Of a stretch of DNA of 64,000 nucleotides, positions 3,919 to 17,305 are shown piece by piece. A program made the translations under genes and the position numbers. The notes beneath the pieces are model-generated. The model ran no database searches and was not told the DNA's origin. It was given only the letters and a program-made list of their open reading frames with translations. Source of the stretch: Methanoregula boonei 6A8 (lineage in GTDB: Archaea; Halobacteriota; Methanomicrobia; Methanomicrobiales; Methanospirillaceae); contig NC_009712.1 in assembly GCF_000017625.1 (NCBI RefSeq), positions 2,418,001 through 2,482,000 of the forward strand, read 5' to 3'. Each line of letters starts with the position of its first letter. Within the stretch, counting starts at the first letter, position 1.

Positions 3919-4746
3919 ATGCAGGAATCACAGGAAACCAGAATGCCCACCGGGATCGCATCGCTCGATCCTATCCTTGATGGGGGCGTCCCGCCGGGAA
4001 CCCTGACCCTCCTTTTTGGCGATATCGGGGCCGGACACTACGAATTTGCCTACAGCTCCACGGTAAACTCCCTTGCAGAGATGCACCGGGTTCCCGGGGC
4101 CGGTATCCTGTACCCCAAAAAGATCCTGTACATCACGTTTACCCGGCTGGAGGCCGATATCAGGCGCGAGATCGTCCAGTCGTTTCCCACCGGTTCAGTG
4201 CCCGGCGGGATGGAGGGGATCGCGTTTGAGGATCTCTCGGATCTCTATTTCGACCGGAGCATTGTGCCGGACTCCTGGTACAGCCGCAGTGATACGCTGA
4301 CCCGGCTCCAGAAGCGCTCCGAACATGCCAACATCTTCATGCGGCTCACGGAAATATTTGCGGCAGCAGAGCCGGAGACTATGATCATCCTCGATTCGAT
4401 CACCGATATTGCAACCCAGACAAACCTTCCCAATCTCTGGGCAGACCTGACCGGTTTTCTCCGGGGCCTCCAGCGGTTTGCAAAGACAAAACGCCTGGCC
4501 ATCTACCTGCTGCTCAGCCGGGGGATCATCGAACAGGCAAAGGAGATCGAACTGGCCGATATCGCCGATGCCGTATTTTTGTTCCGGTGGGAGGAGAGCA
4601 CCGGCTCGCGGCGCCAGCGGGTGATGTATTTCGAGAAGTTCCGGGGGGTCATGCCGCATCTCGAAGAGCAGGACCTGGTGAAATTTGCCGTCAGGATCTC
4701 CACCACCGGGGGATTTGAAGTGAGCAATATCAGGATGGTCATATGA
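3919..4746 (+). CDS. KaiC/RAD55-like ATPase with degenerate P-loop
   Basis: RecA-fold protein of the KaiC/RAD55/FlaH group, 275 residues. The family entry motif GIASLDPILDGG is intact at 12-23, but the Walker A reads GDIGAGHY (34-41): the Lys and Thr/Ser of GKT/GKS are replaced by His-Tyr. A Walker B-like TMIILDSITDI is present near residue 155. It probably binds nucleotide poorly, as a regulatory partner of the intact paralogue whose ATG overlaps its TGA (ATGA). By analogy, FlaH is a KaiC-like partner of the archaellum motor, and this pair diverges from a pilus motor operon; that functional link is inference. Start chosen at MQESQET, the first ATG after the intergenic spacer. Confidence 0.8.
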   Translation: MQESQETRMPTGIASLDPILDGGVPPGTLTLLFGDIGAGHYEFAYSSTVNSLAEMHRVPGAGILYPKKILYITFTRLEADIRREIVQSFPTGSVPGGMEGIAFEDLSDLYFDRSIVPDSWYSRSDTLTRLQKRSEHANIFMRLTEIFAAAEPETMIILDSITDIATQTNLPNLWADLTGFLRGLQRFAKTKRLAIYLLLSRGIIEQAKEIELADIADAVFLFRWEESTGSRRQRVMYFEKFRGVMPHLEEQDLVKFAVRISTTGGFEVSNIRMVI

Positions 4747-5441
4747 ACAGCGACAGGGTGAAAATGGGAATCCCCGGGCTTGACGAAATGCTCGGAGGCG
4801 GGCTGCTTGCAGGGAACATCTGTGCCGTCATCGGGACGTACGGTACCGGAAAAACTACCTTTTCGCTGAACTTTATCTGGGACGGGCTTAAACGGGGCGA
4901 GCGGGCGATCTATATCAGCCTCGAAGAACGGGAGGACCGCCTGCTCCAGTACATGAAACAGAAAGGCTGGGACGTGGAGCCGTACCTCAACAAATCCCTC
5001 TTTATCATCAAGCTCGACCCAACGGATTTCAACCTCGCGAACAACCGGATCAAAAACGAGCTCCCCAACCTGATCAGCGAGGTAAAGGCGAGCCGGGTGG
5101 TGATCGATCCGATCTCGCTCTTTGAAGACCTTTTTTCAAGCGATGCCGAAAGGCGGCGCGAAATGTTCCGGTTTATCGACGGGCTGCGGGAAAAGAATTG
5201 CACCATGATGATGACCTCCGAGACCAACAGCGACAATGTCTTTTCGAGCCGTCACGGACTCATCGAATACCTGGCAGATACGGTCATCCTGCTCCGCTAT
5301 GTCCGCTCAAGCGATCTCACCGATGTCTACCTGGCGCTTGAAGTGGTCAAGATGCGGATGTCGTCTCATTCCCGGGAGATCAAGCCTTACGCGATCGAGC
5401 AGACGCAGGTCACGGTCTTCTCGGAAGCAAACGTGTTTTGA
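4743..5441 (+). CDS. KaiC/RAD55-like ATPase (intact P-loop)
   Basis: RecA-fold ATPase of the KaiC/RAD55 type, 232 residues, single domain. GIPGLDEMLGGG (9-20), Walker A GTYGTGKT (31-38) and a Walker B-type hydrophobic strand ending in Asp (SRVVIDPIS) are all present. It overlaps the degenerate paralogue upstream by four bases, so the two are probably made in fixed ratio and may form a mixed ring. The order (dead subunit first, live subunit second) and the position beside a pilus motor operon suggest a FlaH-like or signalling role, but this is inferred. No kinase or circadian function should be assumed from the KaiC name. Confidence 0.85.
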   Translation: MNSDRVKMGIPGLDEMLGGGLLAGNICAVIGTYGTGKTTFSLNFIWDGLKRGERAIYISLEEREDRLLQYMKQKGWDVEPYLNKSLFIIKLDPTDFNLANNRIKNELPNLISEVKASRVVIDPISLFEDLFSSDAERRREMFRFIDGLREKNCTMMMTSETNSDNVFSSRHGLIEYLADTVILLRYVRSSDLTDVYLALEVVKMRMSSHSREIKPYAIEQTQVTVFSEANVF

Positions 5442-6282: not shown

Positions 6283-6855
6283 TCAAGCAGATTTTCTAGG
6301 GATGACCGTGTAGTACGATTCACCGGCACAGTTCCTGCAGAATACAGCTCCATCCCGGACAATCTGCCGGTTATCGGAGATCTGCTCTCCGCATACACTG
6401 CACACTGCATTCCCCACGGGAAGCCCGGGGAGATCTTCCCGGGGGATGGCAAGCCGGACCTGTTCAATCTTCAGGATCTCTTCTTCGGGAATACAGGAGA
6501 GTACCGTGATGAGCTCTTTTCGATCGATCTTGTCATGTTCGGCCCGGTTCTTCTCGTGGACCGAGACACGGATAGTTTTTCCGGTCGTGGTATTTACAAA
6601 CGTTGCAGCGAATTTCCCGAAATCCTTGTGTTTGAGACTGCGGTGGCCCAGGGAACAGCCGGTAATGGCCTGGACGGCATCGGTGCCGCACCGGTCGATC
6701 TCCATGAACACGATCAGGTTGTGAATCGGTTCGTGGGGATTTATCCCCACTTCGCGGAGGCCGGCGAGGGTAAGCCGTGTCCCAAGAACAATGCCGGGGC
6801 AGACGTGCCCGTGGAACTCTTTTGCTTTGTTGAATAGTATGTCGTAGTCGCTCAT
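6283..6855 (-). CDS. FmdE-family protein with C-terminal zinc finger
   Basis: Protein of the FmdE family, named after a protein copurifying with molybdenum formylmethanofuran dehydrogenase; the real biochemical role of the family is not settled. The N-terminal signature EFHGHVCPG (about 13-21) and a later DRCGTDAV are characteristic. The C-terminus carries a Cys4 finger (CSVC, then CRNC), typical of the longer family form. I prefer the ATG at 6853-6855, which puts the family motif at the usual distance from the N-terminus and has AGGA about 11 nt upstream; a GTG at 6874-6876 overlapping the methyltransferase stop (GTGA) is the alternative. Last gene of a minus-strand operon with two methyltransferases; FmdE-like genes often accompany metal or cofactor uptake genes. 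Confidence 0.85.
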   Translation of the reverse strand: MSDYDILFNKAKEFHGHVCPGIVLGTRLTLAGLREVGINPHEPIHNLIVFMEIDRCGTDAVQAITGCSLGHRSLKHKDFGKFAATFVNTTTGKTIRVSVHEKNRAEHDKIDRKELITVLSCIPEEEILKIEQVRLAIPREDLPGLPVGNAVCSVCGEQISDNRQIVRDGAVFCRNCAGESYYTVIPRKSA

Positions 6856-6872
6856 TTCGGTCACTATCCTTG

Positions 6873-7832
6873 TCACGGGGTATTCCGGGATTTACGGGAT
6901 CCCGAACCCCGGATATTTGTTGATTTCACCGCAGATTGTCCCTGCGTCCACCAGATGTGGGCCCCCAGAGTCTCGCCCCCCAGTACAAAACCGTCTCCTT
7001 CCTCACGCAATACGGACTGGAAATAATTCCGGACAGTCTCCTCGTGGGCGGTTGTTGAGCATTTCAGTCTCCCGGAAAACTCAGCAACTGCATCGTCAAC
7101 GGACGCGTAGACTGACGGAGGAAATTTCGTCTCAACTTCGAGGTTGGCATAGATACCCATCTCGCAAAGCACCTGCCAGAGCCAGTCTGCTGTAGGCTCA
7201 CCGGGAAATTCCCCGCCATGAAGAAGCGGCCAGAGATCCCTGTTTACCTGAACCCATGCAGGAGGGGTCATGAACCAGAAAAGATGGATGGTCCCGGCAC
7301 AGCACTCCACCATCTTTGCCAGGGCTTTACCGATATCCATCATGGTCAGTGAATATGAGGCAATGACGACATCGAACGGTTCCCCGAGTTCCTGTACCGT
7401 GATATCTTCCCAGCGCTTGGGGATTACTCTGATATCTTCGGCATTCCGCTCGCGCATGTTTTCGGCAAGAGCTTCCCGCATAACCGGTGACGGTTCAACC
7501 GCCGTGACTCGGCACCCCCGGGCCGCAAGCGGCACTGCGTAGGTTCCCGGCCCGGTCCCGATATCAAGAACACGGGCTCCTTTTGGAACACTAAGGGCGG
7601 CTGCACGGGTCTCATCATCCCTGTCATGCTTTTTTCTGCCTTTCATATAAACGGCATTGATCATCTCCTTGTTTGCCCAGAACTGCCGGGCATTCCCATA
7701 TACCGGGACAGCGCAATGAGCCAGTTTCAGCTGCCGCCACTGCTCCCTCCAGAAGAATGGATCACGGGGAAAGGGTGAAGATCCCGATAGTGGGGAGGTG
7801 AAAAGACGTTCCGGCTTTATGGATTTGGGCAT
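6873..7832 (-). CDS. Class I SAM-dependent methyltransferase (paralogue 1)
   Basis: Rossmann-fold methyltransferase of 319 residues. Motif I VLDIGTGPG (88-96) and the acidic strand-2 end VTAVEPSP are clear. A further roughly 140 residues after the catalytic core are shared with the neighbouring paralogue at 7886-8761, including a HLFWFMT stretch matching HIFWFLT there, the GEPTAD-x-LWQVL block, and a C-terminal LGAHIWW. The substrate is unknown. The gene overlaps or abuts the FmdE-like gene downstream and follows the paralogue by 53 bases. The N-terminal 25 residues are poorly conserved, so the start is less certain; the ATG used is the first after the paralogue. Confidence 0.87.
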   Translation of the reverse strand: MPKSIKPERLFTSPLSGSSPFPRDPFFWREQWRQLKLAHCAVPVYGNARQFWANKEMINAVYMKGRKKHDRDDETRAAALSVPKGARVLDIGTGPGTYAVPLAARGCRVTAVEPSPVMREALAENMRERNAEDIRVIPKRWEDITVQELGEPFDVVIASYSLTMMDIGKALAKMVECCAGTIHLFWFMTPPAWVQVNRDLWPLLHGGEFPGEPTADWLWQVLCEMGIYANLEVETKFPPSVYASVDDAVAEFSGRLKCSTTAHEETVRNYFQSVLREEGDGFVLGGETLGAHIWWTQGQSAVKSTNIRGSGSRKSRNTP

Positions 7833-7885: not shown

Positions 7886-8761
7886 CTACTGATCTACTGC
7901 AGCCCACCAGATGTGGGCACCGAGCGCCCGGCCATTCAAGAAATATCCTTTTTCGCTTTTTGCCAGTGTCCGGGCGAAGTATGTGCGGAGGATTGCATCC
8001 TGTTCCGCGGTCGTGCAGTTCATGCGATCGTGGAATTCCGTGACCGCCTCTTCGATGGAGGGATAGTACGCCGGGTTGCACCCGCCCTCAACCGAGAGAT
8101 GTGCATAAATCCCCATTTCATAGAGCACCTGCCAGAGGCAGTCCGCAGTTGGCTCACCGTAAAATGCGGTGCCATGGATCTCTTTCCATACCCCGGCATT
8201 GACCTGCGCCCAGAGCGGCTGGGTCAAAAACCAGAAGATATGGGTGGTGCCACGGCAGGCATGCTGCATTTTTAGAACGGCCTCACCGATATCGGCAACC
8301 ATGAGACTGTAGGATGCGATGACTGCATCGTACGGCTCACCGAGATCTTCCCGTGTCACATCCTCCCATCGCTTTGGGATCAGGGTGATCTCCCGGGTTT
8401 TCTGCCCTCGCTGGTACTCGGTAAGGGCTTCTCCCATCAGGGGTGAGGGTTCCACTGCGATGACTTCGCACCCGCGTGCAGCAAGAGGCACGCTGAGAAC
8501 CCCAGTTCCGGCCCCGATTTCAAGAACCCGTGAGCCATTTTTTATTCCCATTCCATTGATCCGGGTCTCTGCCTGCTCCCTCCATTCGTTAAGATCACCG
8601 ATAAAATGTTTTTTTATTCCTTTTTTATCATTCCAGAAACTGTTGTCTTCACTTTTCCGTGATTCAAGCAGGGCCAGACGCTGCGCTTTCCACCGGTCGC
8701 GCCAGTATGTCCGCTCTTGGGTCACCGCCGAACAGGTTGGCAGAACGAGATCCGGGATCAT
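7886..8761 (-). CDS. Class I SAM-dependent methyltransferase (paralogue 2)
   Basis: Second copy of the same methyltransferase type, 291 residues, with motif I VLEIGAGTG (79-87) followed by VIAVEPSP. Matching blocks run along the whole length of paralogue 1 (RWEDVT/RWEDIT, DAVIASYSL/DVVIASYSL, EMGIYAHL/EMGIYANL), so the pair arose by tandem duplication and has since diverged considerably. A family-specific C-terminal domain of about 120 residues, ending in LGAHIWW, may contact the substrate. Lies in a minus-strand series with the radical SAM fusion upstream and the FmdE-like gene downstream. Substrate unknown; a role in modifying a small metal-binding molecule or tetrapyrrole is only inference. 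Confidence 0.87.
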   Translation of the reverse strand: MIPDLVLPTCSAVTQERTYWRDRWKAQRLALLESRKSEDNSFWNDKKGIKKHFIGDLNEWREQAETRINGMGIKNGSRVLEIGAGTGVLSVPLAARGCEVIAVEPSPLMGEALTEYQRGQKTREITLIPKRWEDVTREDLGEPYDAVIASYSLMVADIGEAVLKMQHACRGTTHIFWFLTQPLWAQVNAGVWKEIHGTAFYGEPTADCLWQVLYEMGIYAHLSVEGGCNPAYYPSIEEAVTEFHDRMNCTTAEQDAILRTYFARTLAKSEKGYFLNGRALGAHIWWAAVDQ

Positions 8762-8815: not shown

Positions 8816-8998
8816 TCAGGCAAGGTCGAGAGTCTTCATCCGTTTCTCCAGCGCGAGTTCCTGTACTAGGAATGCGATCTGCTCATCGGTAAACTCGTCC
8901 CGGATAGAATCCGCATAAAAATACAGGTAATCATCTGCGCTAAACACGGTATCGAAATCAGACTCCGGGGTTTTGTCGCAACTTCTTACCTCCGTCAT
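8816..8998 (-). pseudogene. N-terminal fragment of a class I methyltransferase
   Basis: A 60-residue frame whose last residues, DDYLYFYADSIRDEF then MKTLDLA, match the start of a class I SAM methyltransferase up to the first half of motif I (LDLxCGxG). The frame stops exactly where the glycine-rich loop should continue, and the DNA downstream (8762-8815) is AT-rich and does not encode the rest in any frame I could follow. I therefore call it the remnant of a third methyltransferase, truncated by deletion, rather than a functional small protein. It sits just upstream of two full-length methyltransferases of a different subfamily. A retained function for the peptide cannot be excluded. Confidence 0.55.
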
Positions 8999-9094: not shown

Positions 9095-10795
9095 TTATGA
9101 AAGTGTACCTTCCATCTCACGCTCATACCGCTCCTGCTCACCGGCAAGCGAGTAGCGGAACTGCGCCGGGTGGAGGCAGTTTGCTACATCCATGAGACCC
9201 AGTGCCCAGCTTATTGTCCCGTCCGCATGACTGCTGTTGAGCATATACACACGATTCGTATCAAGTGCCCGGCAGTGAATCCCGAGATCCCGGCAGGTTG
9301 TAATAAAATCGGAAACCGGGGGGGCAAAATGGCCTGATACGAGGATTACCTCCGGGTCAAGCCGGTTGATTTCCTCGACGGAATATTCGGGATTTTTACT
9401 TTCCGTGAAGCCGAGCTCGCGGTTGAGGCTTCTCCCCCCTGCAATCTCGATCAGCTGGTTTACCGGCTTTGCCGCGTATAGCGGGAAGAGCGGGTGGCTG
9501 AGCACTGCGTAAACCCGGGGCTTCCCGGTAACCGGCGCTTTTTCCTGCACTTCGTCCCTCACATCCAAGATGTACCGGGCGAGCCGGTCCGCCCGCTCTT
9601 CCCGGTGAACGAGCGTTGCAAGGTACCGGACCATATCGAGATATGCATCTATGCTGCCGGTGTGGGTGGAAAAATCGGTGAGATAGCCGTTTGTAATCAG
9701 CGTGTTTGAAACACGGTCAATTACTTTTTCATCGGTGACCCCGAGGGTAGCGAGAATACCGCTTGCGACCCGCGCCCCCATGATTGAGCGATATCCCCCA
9801 AGAACCTGGACTTCTCCTTCGAATATCGGATCGATCGTACCCGTACACGGGAACCGGTATCCGCAGCTGCATATACCGTCAGGATGACAGGATAGTACCC
9901 GTGCTGCCATGGGCCCAAAGAAGACCCGGTGGATGAGAATTTTCCCGCAGACCGGGCACCGGGTGTCGAGCTCCGTTGTCGCGGGGGTATTGAACAGGTA
10001 CACGTGATCAAGGTAGTTCCGCAGGGTCGTGCAGAGTGCTTCCCCTTGTGCCCGCGTCGGGGCGATCGGCTCGAGATCCGGATGCGTCGCCATGAAACGC
10101 ATGACCTGGAAGGGAATGGATGGCGAGATCGCACGGACACGCTCTGCGGCCCCGGTAACTTCCTGCTCCCTCCCATTAAGGTACATGACCGAGACCTCTA
10201 CGGATATGCCATTATCGTACAGGATCTTCAGGTTCCGGTAGACCGGGGCGGATGATACGGCACCGCATTCCCGGTACCGCTCATCCGATGATCCCTTGAG
10301 GCCGATGTTGACAAAATCCAGGTACGGGAGCAGGCTTTGCAGGGTCTCCGGTGTCATGTAGCCATTGCTGGAGCAGCCGACAAGGAGCCCCGCGCTCTTT
10401 GCTGCCTTTGCGACCCGGAGAAACGTGGGAAAGGACACGGCAGGTTCGTTGAGACAGAACGTGATACCCCGGCAGGAATACTCCCGGGCAATCGACAGGA
10501 TCTCCTCCGGGGGATGCGGGACAAGTACCTCCTGCAGAGTCCCGGGCCGGGTGGTCTGGAACTCTGAGATACAGCCGTCACAGGCAAAGTTACAGCCCAT
10601 GGTACTGATCAACAGGAAGATACCGTTCGGGTAAAAGTGGATCATCGGGATGGATTCGCTGGAGACCGGGTAGATATTGAGATACCGGTCCGGGTAATTT
10701 TCCGTGATCGCACCCATACTGTTCCGGTACATCCGGCAATACCCGTTCTGTCCTTCCTGCATATCGCAGGCCCGTTCACAATAGCCGCATCTCAT
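9095..10795 (-). CDS. Radical SAM enzyme fused to a BtuF/TroA-like binding domain
   Basis: A 566-residue fusion. Residues 3-20 hold a cysteine cluster (C3, C6, C10, C20) like that before PflA/AmmeMemoRadiSam-type enzymes; the radical SAM cluster motif CNFACDGC is at 68-75. After the SAM barrel come two cysteine pairs and further cysteines (CPVC ... CSCG ... C, about 285-325), a likely zinc ribbon or extra iron-sulphur site. The last 150 residues or so look like a helical-backbone metal-receptor (BtuF/TroA) domain, including the typical EEINRLDPEVILVSG step. There is no signal peptide, so this binding domain would be cytoplasmic, which is unusual. The ATG at 10793-10795 is preferred over the frame opening at 10855 because the cysteine cluster begins at once and AGGGAA lies upstream. 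Neighbours: DUF364 protein, methyltransferases, FmdE-like protein. Substrate unknown. Confidence 0.82.
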   Translation of the reverse strand: MRCGYCERACDMQEGQNGYCRMYRNSMGAITENYPDRYLNIYPVSSESIPMIHFYPNGIFLLISTMGCNFACDGCISEFQTTRPGTLQEVLVPHPPEEILSIAREYSCRGITFCLNEPAVSFPTFLRVAKAAKSAGLLVGCSSNGYMTPETLQSLLPYLDFVNIGLKGSSDERYRECGAVSSAPVYRNLKILYDNGISVEVSVMYLNGREQEVTGAAERVRAISPSIPFQVMRFMATHPDLEPIAPTRAQGEALCTTLRNYLDHVYLFNTPATTELDTRCPVCGKILIHRVFFGPMAARVLSCHPDGICSCGYRFPCTGTIDPIFEGEVQVLGGYRSIMGARVASGILATLGVTDEKVIDRVSNTLITNGYLTDFSTHTGSIDAYLDMVRYLATLVHREERADRLARYILDVRDEVQEKAPVTGKPRVYAVLSHPLFPLYAAKPVNQLIEIAGGRSLNRELGFTESKNPEYSVEEINRLDPEVILVSGHFAPPVSDFITTCRDLGIHCRALDTNRVYMLNSSHADGTISWALGLMDVANCLHPAQFRYSLAGEQERYEREMEGTLS

Positions 10796-10984: not shown

Positions 10985-11845
10985 TTACCGCTGCCGGGTG
11001 AGGGTCTTCTCCGCAGATTTTCCAAAGAAATGATACCCTGATCCGCCCTCGGCTATCGTATCGAGCAGCCGGTCCGGATCGGTAACAACATCTCCTCCCA
11101 GCACCGTGACACCGCGCCGGAAGAATGCGGCGGGGAGCATACTCGCGGTCGGTCCCACGACAACGATCTCTGCACCGGGCCGTGCCGAGGCAAGAAGGGG
11201 TTCGAGCGTGTTGTTCAGAAGGGTTGTGCCGGTAATGACAAGCATGTCGGCCCTGCGGATCTCTGCATCTGCTTTCCCTGGTGGGATGGCAAACGGCAAT
11301 TCATCGGGTTTGAGGGTACGCAGATCGAGTTCGAGAATCCCAAACGGTTTTCCCCGGACTTTCAGGCGCTTAATAATCGGTACAAGCGCTCCGACAACCA
11401 CCACATATCCCATTTCCGGCAGAAGGAGAGTTTCGAGTGCATCTTTCCCTGCATCGGTCACGCAAGCATCATCAGGCCGGCGTTTCCTGCAGGACTCCGC
11501 GAGGGCATTGATGACAGCAACGCCAACCGCTTTTTTCAGGGGCGGGGCCCCGGCCAGATCCCGGATAAAATCCGCGGCGGGTTTCCCGGTAAATTTTCCC
11601 GGGTACGGCATTGCCCGGGCAGAGCTCGGGCAGCAGACAGCATCCGGGATCTCCTTTATGGGAGTAAAGCAGATCCCACCGGAGCCGTCGCTAAGTTTGA
11701 TGCCGGTAAAGAAGATCCCGATGACAACCCGTTCGATTGTGATCGTTTCAAAATTGCTGCCGAGAATATCCCGGATCTCCGTAAGGGTCTCCTCCAAGAT
11801 CGAACCGGGCCGGGAAAAGAGGGTGGAATCAGTAACGGGCATCAT
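10985..11845 (-). CDS. DUF4213/DUF364 putative heavy-metal chelation protein
   Basis: 286-residue protein with the two-domain layout of the DUF4213/DUF364 family, annotated in protein-family databases as putative heavy-metal chelation. The N-terminal part includes a GICFTP segment; the C-terminal Rossmann-like part has GYVVVVGALVPIIKRLK, a following acidic strand (ILELD), ADMLVITGTTLLNNTLE and VVVGPTASMLP, the usual order in this family. Cytoplasmic, no signal peptide. It follows the response regulator by 18 bases and so may be cotranscribed with the two-component system; the radical SAM fusion follows after its own promoter spacer. These genes recur near metal transport or metallocofactor genes, which fits this locus. 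The exact ligand cannot be read from the sequence. Confidence 0.8.
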   Translation of the reverse strand: MMPVTDSTLFSRPGSILEETLTEIRDILGSNFETITIERVVIGIFFTGIKLSDGSGGICFTPIKEIPDAVCCPSSARAMPYPGKFTGKPAADFIRDLAGAPPLKKAVGVAVINALAESCRKRRPDDACVTDAGKDALETLLLPEMGYVVVVGALVPIIKRLKVRGKPFGILELDLRTLKPDELPFAIPPGKADAEIRRADMLVITGTTLLNNTLEPLLASARPGAEIVVVGPTASMLPAAFFRRGVTVLGGDVVTDPDRLLDTIAEGGSGYHFFGKSAEKTLTRQR

Positions 11846-15433: not shown

Positions 15434-17305
15434 TTACGGTTTCATCTGGCCAATCAGCTGCTCGACCTCTCTGACCTGTGCTGCGGATTCCGGCGGTGCC
15501 ATCTGGACAAACTTCCCAAAACAGCGGACTGCATCCCGATCTTTCCCTAAAATCCCGTACGCGGTTCCTTTGTTGAGCCAGGCATCTGCGTAATCCGGCT
15601 TCAGCGTGATTGCATGATCGTACGCTGACACGGCCTCTTCGAATTTACCGCGCCGGGCAAGCGACTCCCCTTCGCAATACCATTTTTCCGCCTCGCGCGG
15701 CCGGGATGTGTTTTCCCGGGGCAGATTTGGCAGGGGGGTTTCAAACGCAAGCGCAGTCTCAAACCGGCCCAGGGGGGCAGGAGATCCCCCGGTAGAGTAC
15801 CACGCATCGGTATCTTCCGGATCCACGGTACAGACATGCCGGAACGCGGATACCGCCTCGTCAAACCGGCCAAGCTCGGCAAGCGCGTCACCCTTGTTAT
15901 TCCAGATCTTTACATCCGCGGGGGCAAGTTCAAGTGCGCGGGTATACGCTGTTACCGCTTCTTCGAGCCGGCCAAGCTCGGCAAGCAAAACCCCCTTGTT
16001 GTTCCATGCCCGGGCATCGCCGGGAGAAAGTTCAAGTCCCCGGGAATACGCTGACACTGCCTCTTTTAGCCGGCCGCACCGGGCAAGTAAAGTCCCCTTG
16101 TTGTTCCATACCCGGGCATCATTGGGAGACAGTTCGAGCGCCCGGGCATATGCAGACACCGCCTCGTCAAACCGGCCAAGTTCTGCGAGGAAATCCCCTT
16201 TGTTGACCAGCGACTGGATGTTCTCCGGCTCAAGGAGGATCGAGCATTCAAAGGCGGTTACAACCTCATCGAAACACGCTGAGTCCGGCTCAACAAATAC
16301 CTCCCGGGTGCTGTTCCAATCGTTATGCGCCCAGGAATCCTTCCTGCCGATGACTGCGTACTCTTCCCCGGTCAGCTCCCTGAAGACCCGCTTTAGTTCG
16401 TTTTTTATTTCCCCGAAATCGGCATACCTGTCCTCCGGCCGCCGTTTCATGCATCTCCCGATCAGCCGGTCCAGGCTCTCCGGTACCTTCGGATTTGAGG
16501 ACAGGGGGCGCTCGGGGCACCCGCAGAAGATCTCATCTGGCCCATAGAAAGGCATCTTTCCCGTTGCCATCACGTAGAGCAGGACACCAAATGCATAGAT
16601 ATCGGATTTTGTGGATGCTGTACCGTGAAAAGAAAAGTTCTCCTTGATTTTTTGCGGGAATAATTCCGGGGGTGTAAAAGAAAAAGTCCCGGTATCGGCA
16701 GGATATTTCCCATGTACAATTCGGGGATCCTGGGGAAATGATTGTGCTATACCGAAATCCCGGATCTTATAGCAGTGTCCGAACCTGAAGACGGGATTTT
16801 TCTGCACCATCACGCTGGAAGGCCTGATGCTGCCATGAAACGTCTCCAGCTTCTCATGGGCATATTCCATACCCGTACAGAACTGGATGGCGAAGTCCAG
16901 CGTTTTTTCGAGAGGAAAAGATTTCAGGTACTGCCTGAGGACCCCGTTCCCGGTATATTCAGAAAACAACAGGGGCCTGCCATCGACCATCTCTACAAAA
17001 TCGGCAAAAACGATATTGGTATGGTGACCGAGGCTCACCCACTCGTCTGCCCCGTCCATGAAGTCTTGGACGGCACCCGCATCATTCACGAGATTATCCG
17101 GTACGGTTATGATCGAGAGTGTTTTCTTTGCTGTTTGGTCCCGTGCAGTATAGGTAACATACTGGTCGCTTTTGGTTATTTCCAGGAGTTCATAACGGTT
17201 TTTTACGAGATACCCGGCAGTCCAGGCTCGGGACGAGGCAGGGTGGCTCCGGGGGGGGTCCTCGCTCTCAAAAAAGAGATCAACAATTTTTTGACGCCAA
17301 CCCAT
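15434..17305 (-). CDS. Protein kinase-like domain with TPR repeats; probable pseudokinase
   Basis: 623 residues: a eukaryote-type Ser/Thr kinase fold (about 36-335) followed by about seven or eight tetratricopeptide repeats (345-615). Catalytic residues are partly lost: the HRD loop reads HGS (157-159), and the strand that should carry the ATP-binding Lys reads LSIITV. The DFG motif survives (183-185), as does an activation-segment-like PPELF and the DIYAFG helix. This pattern suggests a pseudokinase that scaffolds partners through its TPRs. The TPR part is encoded by near-identical 102-base units, visible as a DNA repeat. It stands alone on the minus strand with 200-base spacers on both sides. 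Confidence 0.82.
   Translation of the reverse strand: MGWRQKIVDLFFESEDPPRSHPASSRAWTAGYLVKNRYELLEITKSDQYVTYTARDQTAKKTLSIITVPDNLVNDAGAVQDFMDGADEWVSLGHHTNIVFADFVEMVDGRPLLFSEYTGNGVLRQYLKSFPLEKTLDFAIQFCTGMEYAHEKLETFHGSIRPSSVMVQKNPVFRFGHCYKIRDFGIAQSFPQDPRIVHGKYPADTGTFSFTPPELFPQKIKENFSFHGTASTKSDIYAFGVLLYVMATGKMPFYGPDEIFCGCPERPLSSNPKVPESLDRLIGRCMKRRPEDRYADFGEIKNELKRVFRELTGEEYAVIGRKDSWAHNDWNSTREVFVEPDSACFDEVVTAFECSILLEPENIQSLVNKGDFLAELGRFDEAVSAYARALELSPNDARVWNNKGTLLARCGRLKEAVSAYSRGLELSPGDARAWNNKGVLLAELGRLEEAVTAYTRALELAPADVKIWNNKGDALAELGRFDEAVSAFRHVCTVDPEDTDAWYSTGGSPAPLGRFETALAFETPLPNLPRENTSRPREAEKWYCEGESLARRGKFEEAVSAYDHAITLKPDYADAWLNKGTAYGILGKDRDAVRCFGKFVQMAPPESAAQVREVEQLIGQMKP
15820..16235 (-). repeat. 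102-base tandem repeat inside the TPR-coding region
   Basis: Four consecutive units of 34 codons share stretches such as ccggccaagctcggcaag and the gcctc...cttgttattcca / cttgttgttcca blocks at 102-base spacing, giving protein units containing AWNNKG/VWNNKG, LAELGR and EAVSAY. High nucleotide identity between units points to recent unit duplication or gene conversion. It is coding, not a CRISPR array or intergenic repeat. Confidence 0.8.

Follow-up and report, generated by a model that had tools for sequence, protein, structure and literature searches.

The nearest solved fold to the radical SAM (rSAM) half of the enzyme described here is that of the pyruvate formate-lyase (PFL) activating enzyme (3c8f; TM-score 0.76 on the target), from which the enzyme differs in its additional N- and C-terminal cysteine clusters and in its receptor half; no glycyl radical enzyme was found among the genes scanned around its loci. 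Among NCBIfam models the best match is to the rSAM enzyme of the AmmeMemoRadiSam system (TIGR04337), which aligns with residues 1-314 and spans both an N-terminal cysteine motif and a C-terminal ribbon. The score of 108.9 bits lies below the cut-off of 220, on which ground membership of that family was rejected, and the enzyme also bears a half receptor that the family does not share. Class III solute-binding receptors, such as MolA HI1472 (3psa), the Sulfurospirillum deleyianum protein 4pag, IsdE and BtuF, have a backbone helix and C-lobe in common with it in both sequence and fold, but they are exported proteins with an N-lobe and are not joined to an enzyme. ChuW and HutW are anaerobic haem-degrading rSAM enzymes, of which ChuW frees iron from haem. 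Their genes, like that of the present enzyme, accompany a FecCD-type importer of a metal chelate. The likeness is one of logic only: they belong to another rSAM family and have no receptor domain. DUF364 proteins (Dhaf4260) have been linked to tungstate, molybdate and vanadate transport genes, with a proposed part in siderophore or pterin synthesis (PMC2954201); the gene next upstream of ours belongs to this family, as a separate gene that accompanies a minority of the fusions. Both domains of the enzyme are known, whereas their fusion, the halving of the receptor and a molybdenum/tungsten (Mo/W) link of this rSAM branch are not described in the literature searched, which spans few subscription papers and yielded no published account of an rSAM/receptor fusion.

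The window analyzed here is a stretch of 64,000 nucleotides from Methanoregula boonei 6A8, whose genome forms a single contig of 2,542,943 bases. An intact open reading frame on its minus strand (9095..10795, ATG at 10795) encodes a 566-aa rSAM/half class III solute-binding protein fusion; the features below lie on the same strand. The protein begins MRCGYCERAC, directly with a cysteine motif and with no leader or signal peptide, and has neither the signal peptide nor the lipoprotein anchor of exported Peripla_BP_2 (PF01497) proteins. This motif, C-x2-C-x3-C-x9-C (C3, C6, C10 and C20; residues 3-20, 10736..10789), stands ahead of the rSAM core (residues 63-208, 10172..10609), which matches Pfam Radical_SAM (PF04055) with an E-value of 1.9e-16 and 61.1 bits against a cut-off of 29.5 and contains the CxxxCxxC of C68, C72 and C75. 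AlphaFold predicts the full chain with a mean pLDDT of 85 and a pTM of 0.83, modelling the rSAM half as a partial TIM barrel that resembles PFL activase, QueE, MoaA and NifB. The core is followed by a ribbon-like Cys4 group, CPxC...CxC (C280, C283, C309 and C311; residues 280-311, 9863..9958), a putative Zn or FeS ligand, then by a GGY(R) motif and an all-helical stretch in place of the receptor N-lobe (residues 333-380, 9656..9799), and finally by the half receptor of backbone helix and C-lobe (residues 380-563, 9107..9658). Judged from its sequence, the protein is cytosolic, an rSAM enzyme joined to half of a metal-uptake receptor.

The receptor half matches Peripla_BP_2 at residues 373-521 (E-value 1.1e-9, 38.5 bits against a cut-off of 27.5), and the match spans just positions 88-233 of the 235 in the profile. 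Profile-profile comparison aligns residues 380-565 of the fusion with residues 159-350 of 365 in the true receptors encoded nearby (probability 99.9). A profile search of PDB sequences retrieved class III receptors only, the strongest matches beginning about one third or half of the way along the receptor chain. Foldseek placed the second half with the class III receptors 4pag, 4hn9, MolA 3psa, CeuE and IsdE, at partial coverage and query TM-scores of 0.47-0.62. In both AlphaFold models, that of the full chain and that of the C-terminal domain with 64 relatives (pLDDT 86.4), residues 336-378 form helices only, with no strands where the N-lobe sheet is expected; long backbone helices and an alpha/beta C-lobe follow, the EEINRLDPEVILVSG step belonging to the latter. 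The partial profile match, the alignment of residues 380-565 and the strandless models together indicate a receptor domain made of the backbone helix and C-lobe and not a whole one. The N-lobe is accordingly missing, about 50 helical residues of constant length taking its place; the two-lobed ligand cleft of PF01497 is not recovered, and the rSAM half may complete it. The initial annotation had seen the CxxxCxxC core at residues 68-75, extra cysteine clusters on both sides of it and the lack of a signal peptide, all of which hold. It had also read the C-terminal part as a BtuF/TroA-like receptor domain: the class III assignment stands, its completeness does not, and structure prediction of the full chain, proposed there as a check, gave the rSAM barrel and class III C-lobe with no other fold for the receptor part.

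The gene is present in 17 of 60 related genomes at full length and 38-65% identity, two of the 17 copies being split. A wider scan of named genomes, its reach limited by the two peptide patterns used, found at least 79 loci. The archaeal ones belong to Methanoregula, Methanospirillum, Methanoculleus, Methanolinea, Methanocalculus, Methanogenium, Methanofollis and Methanohalophilus; the bacterial ones belong to Desulfobacula, Desulfobacter, Desulfosarcina, Pelobacter/Desulfuromonas, Desulfovibrio, Sulfurospirillum, Seleniivibrio, Deferribacteraceae, Thiobaca, Chlorobium, Syntrophomonas, Pelotomaculum, Desulfosporosinus and Treponema, the Treponema record matching with its rSAM half alone before the contig ends. 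Most of these organisms are anaerobes. The patchy distribution over phyla suggests horizontal transfer of the island.

We compared 87 fusion sequences from Methanomicrobiales, Methanohalophilus and at least six bacterial phyla, a spread that answers the initial annotation's question of whether the fusion is conserved. The four N-terminal cysteines, the three of the rSAM motif and three of the four in the ribbon are invariant, and the fourth ribbon cysteine is kept in 86 of the 87; C141 and C177 are retained in 85 and 84 sequences, and G333-G334-Y335, P435, N458 and P543 are invariant. The distance from C311 to residue 380 is 69 or 70 aa in every fusion. A frameshift or assembly join as the origin of the protein is rejected by this fixed spacing and by the recurrence of the fusion in the 87 sequences and in 17 of the 60 related genomes. 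The only locus with a stop between the halves comes from one Methanoculleus MAG (L038:9032-10768, also L072), where an in-frame TAA leaves one ORF of 353 aa and another of 213 aa. The tree places the window protein in a clade with Methanoregula and Methanospirillum members that has full support, and gives the unfused rSAM relatives a clade of their own; in Desulfosporosinus (L127) a fused copy adjoins a recently unfused sister copy. Most other fusions possess a GWDFGSPRW loop in the C-lobe that the Methanoregula/Methanospirillum clade lacks, and the ligand of the M. boonei fusion may therefore differ from that of other fusions.

The genes around the fusion in the window follow one another on the same strand. 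Upstream by 190 bp lies a DUF4213/DUF364 protein with a putative role in heavy-metal chelation (10985..11845); downstream come a 60-aa ORF without a Pfam match (8816..8998), a class I SAM methyltransferase (7886..8761), its paralogue (6873..7832) and an FmdE-domain protein with a C-terminal C4 zinc finger, whose gene (6283..6876) shares 4 bp with that of the methyltransferase. The immediate window neighbours tested (DUF364, the two methyltransferases and FmdE) include neither AMMECR1 nor Memo; a paralogue of about 320 aa occurs in M. boonei. For the other loci, gene calls were made in this analysis and gene clusters were named from one or few representatives. Within 9 kb of the fusion, a methyltransferase is encoded at 51 of 70 distinct loci, a class III receptor at 39, a FecCD permease at 36 and an O-methyltransferase with a dimerisation domain at eight; the FecCD importer and receptor occur together near 32. 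One SAM methyltransferase family lies directly upstream of the fusion in 46 loci (near-duplicates counted), mostly with a 4-bp overlap. More than one rSAM gene is found in two operons (L099 and L127), and TonB receptors accompany the Gram-negative loci L105, L112, L123 and L132, with a weaker, probable match at L101. DUF364 and FmdE, whose constant presence near the fusion the initial annotation put up for checking, are within 9 kb of only ten and six of the 70 loci and were rejected as obligate partners; the usual partners are the methyltransferase and the FecCD-type importer with its receptor.

Several further genes in the window and at these loci are recorded here as observations in their own right. 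The window encodes a 623-aa protein whose sequence looks like a degenerate protein kinase domain of eukaryote type with TPR repeats behind it (15434-17305, minus strand) and two adjacent KaiC-type ATPases (3919-5441, plus strand), the first a weak match whose P-loop, GDIGAGHYE, is without the usual lysine. In Seleniivibrio, a 629-aa ORF adjoining the fusion locus (L103:5925-7814, minus strand) joins an ABC-transporter ATPase (residues 21-169) to Peripla_BP_2 (367-563), a possible second cytosolic receptor domain. Exported-looking proteins of 760 aa with two Peripla_BP_2 stretches (L050:7090-9372 and a like ORF in L052) adjoin an unfused rSAM gene. The same is true, in most of its loci, of a family of about 390 aa (c27; L134:9999-11159, L135:4330-5496, L099:6300-7472, L087:422-1594, also L050 and L052) for which no Pfam or PDB relative was found; in L134 and L135 it lies within an operon behind a P3-lacking Mo/W riboswitch. 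Sulfurospirillum loci L101, L102 and L110 have one or two truncated-haemoglobin-type genes (Bac_globin) beside a ModE-like gene. In Methanoculleus (L066, L070, L071, L072 and L082), the fusion adjoins genes of arsenic type: LMW phosphatase/ArsC type, ACR3-like SBF, DGC domain, DUF2703 and an ArsG-like permease.

The fusion family as a whole is linked to molybdenum and tungsten, and this linkage is well supported. Six Mo/W riboswitches (RF01055) were found, in L085, L127, L133, L134 (two) and L135, and two Moco-II RNAs in L112. The same genomes hold 76 copies of RF01055 in ~29.3 Mb, a density that predicts 0.35 copies for the 133.5 kb examined, so that the six found represent a ~17-fold excess (P ~2e-6). 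In 17 genomes, 10 TOBE genes lie within 10 kb of the fusion or of its unfused relative, where chance would give 0.67 (~15-fold, P ~3e-9). Both P values are optimistic since they treat related genomes as independent. The riboswitch stands directly before receptor genes in three cases: in L085 it heads the operon of receptor and fusion, and in L134 and L135 it heads operons of receptor, permease, ATPase and rSAM genes, where the rSAM gene is the unfused relative. The L127 copy is flanked by the fusion and by an O-methyltransferase gene that comes right after it. The aptamers of L085, L134 and L135 are missing P3, and the P3-lacking variant has been tied to the tungsten cofactor (Regulski et al., PMC2408646). 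Sulfurospirillum loci combine a ModE-like regulator with a single TOBE (Mop) gene, archaeal loci are near Mop, ModA/WtpA or ModB, and further loci have HTH-PBP_like regulators or a MoeA-type protein. Altogether, a Mo/W gene or riboswitch is nearby in 20 of the 70 loci.

The M. boonei locus itself has no Mo/W marker: the only RNA found in the window is a tRNA, with no Mo/W riboswitch, and the sole TOBE match of the genome is ~0.7 Mb away. Neither is there a FecCD importer beside the fusion, the only strong one in the genome being 1.46 Mb distant. These absences, together with the loss of the GWDFGSPRW loop in the clade, count against a Mo/W reading at the window. Its sister loci do have one: Mop lies near G017, G024 and G030 and near L057, L058, L060, L061 and L063. 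With no riboswitch, Mop or importer near the gene, we infer any role of the M. boonei fusion in Mo/W metabolism from its relatives.

SAM-using enzymes (the rSAM enzyme and several methyltransferases), found in company with chelate importers and Mo/W control, suggest a small molecule that carries Mo/W. Our tentative preference, which we hold at somewhat less than an even chance, is that the fusion is a cytosolic enzyme making or finishing such a molecule, with the half receptor holding it at the radical site. The fusion would belong to a pathway by which anaerobes acquire tungsten and molybdenum. Its half receptor, probably descended from the family of the partner importer's binding protein, would grip the metal carrier, either a Mo/W metallophore or the precursor of one. 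In place of the N-lobe, the rSAM barrel together with the helical insert would bring the ligand to the [4Fe-4S]/SAM site, where a 5'-deoxyadenosyl radical would modify it. One or more translationally coupled methyltransferases would finish the molecule, some loci adding an O-methyltransferase, DUF364 or a second rSAM enzyme, and the finished molecule would bring tungstate or molybdate back through TonB/FecCD-type importers. We infer this chemistry, the identity of the ligand and the sharing of the role by the M. boonei copy. A metal chelate held for the rSAM site had already been suggested in the initial annotation; it fits the evidence and is the leading idea here. The corrinoid-like substrate offered with it is not supported: no cobalamin or other metal riboswitch occurs in ~403 kb of bacterial fusion loci, as against the six Mo/W riboswitches and two Moco-II RNAs.

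The same genes could serve release and not synthesis. The half receptor would then take an imported Mo/W chelate, whether the cell's own, foreign or humic, from the importer on the cytosolic side, and radical chemistry with methylation would break the chelator and free the metal, much as ChuW does with haem. A receptor-derived domain would recognize an imported ligand, P3-lacking riboswitches would turn the genes on at low tungsten cofactor, and the importer is the commonest partner besides the methyltransferases. As for a metallophore cluster, importers and candidate synthesis enzymes are common at the fusion loci, while exporters are few, seen only with the Methanoculleus copies (ABC-2 type, L037/L039) and with Seleniivibrio (RND and EmrAB-TolC, L100/L103). 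This scarcity, the presence of a Mo/W marker at only ~30% of loci and the position of the L134 and L135 riboswitches before an unfused rSAM gene weigh against the preferred reading. Release is nevertheless unlikely: several methyltransferases, an O-methyltransferase, DUF364 and a second rSAM enzyme in one operon (L099, L127) resemble a synthetic pathway, and some copies, including that of the window, have no importer nearby. We favour synthesis over breakdown because several tailoring enzymes accompany the fusion.

Some ~70% of the loci are without a Mo/W marker, which leaves room for a different ligand, such as iron, cobalt/nickel, vanadium, or an arsenic or selenium compound, the Mo/W genes being incidental in part of the family. 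The arsenic-resistance genes beside the Methanoculleus copies count against a Mo/W reading there, and L132 adjoins a tetrapyrrole methylase gene. NifA-like regulators beside L100, L103 and L105, which score below the model cut-off, would fit nitrogenase metals, vanadium included. This is still quite improbable as an account of the family, since Mo/W signals from riboswitches, regulators, transporters and Mop recur above chance in unrelated phyla and the fusion loci revealed no riboswitch for another metal. It is more doubtful again that the enzyme handles Mo/W inside the cell, in cofactor maturation or metal insertion, with the half receptor holding a metal oxyanion and no chelator involved. 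The Mop, ModE and MoeA-like genes nearby are compatible with such a role, as is the appearance of MolA, a receptor binding bare molybdate, among the structural and profile matches, but the strong linkage is to FecCD/TonB importers, the usual carriers of bulky chelates, and no constant association with any one Mo/W enzyme is seen. Receptor domains in the cytosol can serve to sense ligands, yet a half receptor that merely switches the rSAM domain on ligand binding, with no substrate delivered, is scarcely credible given strictly conserved catalytic cysteines, co-transcription with enzymes and the lack of a signalling output domain.

The supply of molybdenum and tungsten to anaerobes in sulfidic habitats, where these metals are scarce thio-oxyanions, is poorly understood, and the literature searched contains no dedicated Mo/W carrier made by anaerobes. 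The fusion is shared by archaea and no fewer than six bacterial phyla and often has W/Mo genes as neighbours, which suggests that microbes living without oxygen have an undescribed means of making or processing such a carrier. The fuller proposal of a widespread anaerobic pathway for a dedicated W/Mo metallophore, in which an rSAM enzyme absorbed half of an uptake receptor and completes the cleft with its own active site, is possible but rather doubtful; if a metallophore were proved, the fusion family would be a new kind of system. In the fusion, half of a transport receptor has become part of an enzyme. The family connects a branch of rSAM enzymes with a Mo/W-linked pathway, along with DUF364, for which metal chelation has long been suspected, and offers a genetic handle on that pathway across methanogens, sulfate reducers, Sulfurospirillum, syntrophs and phototrophs.
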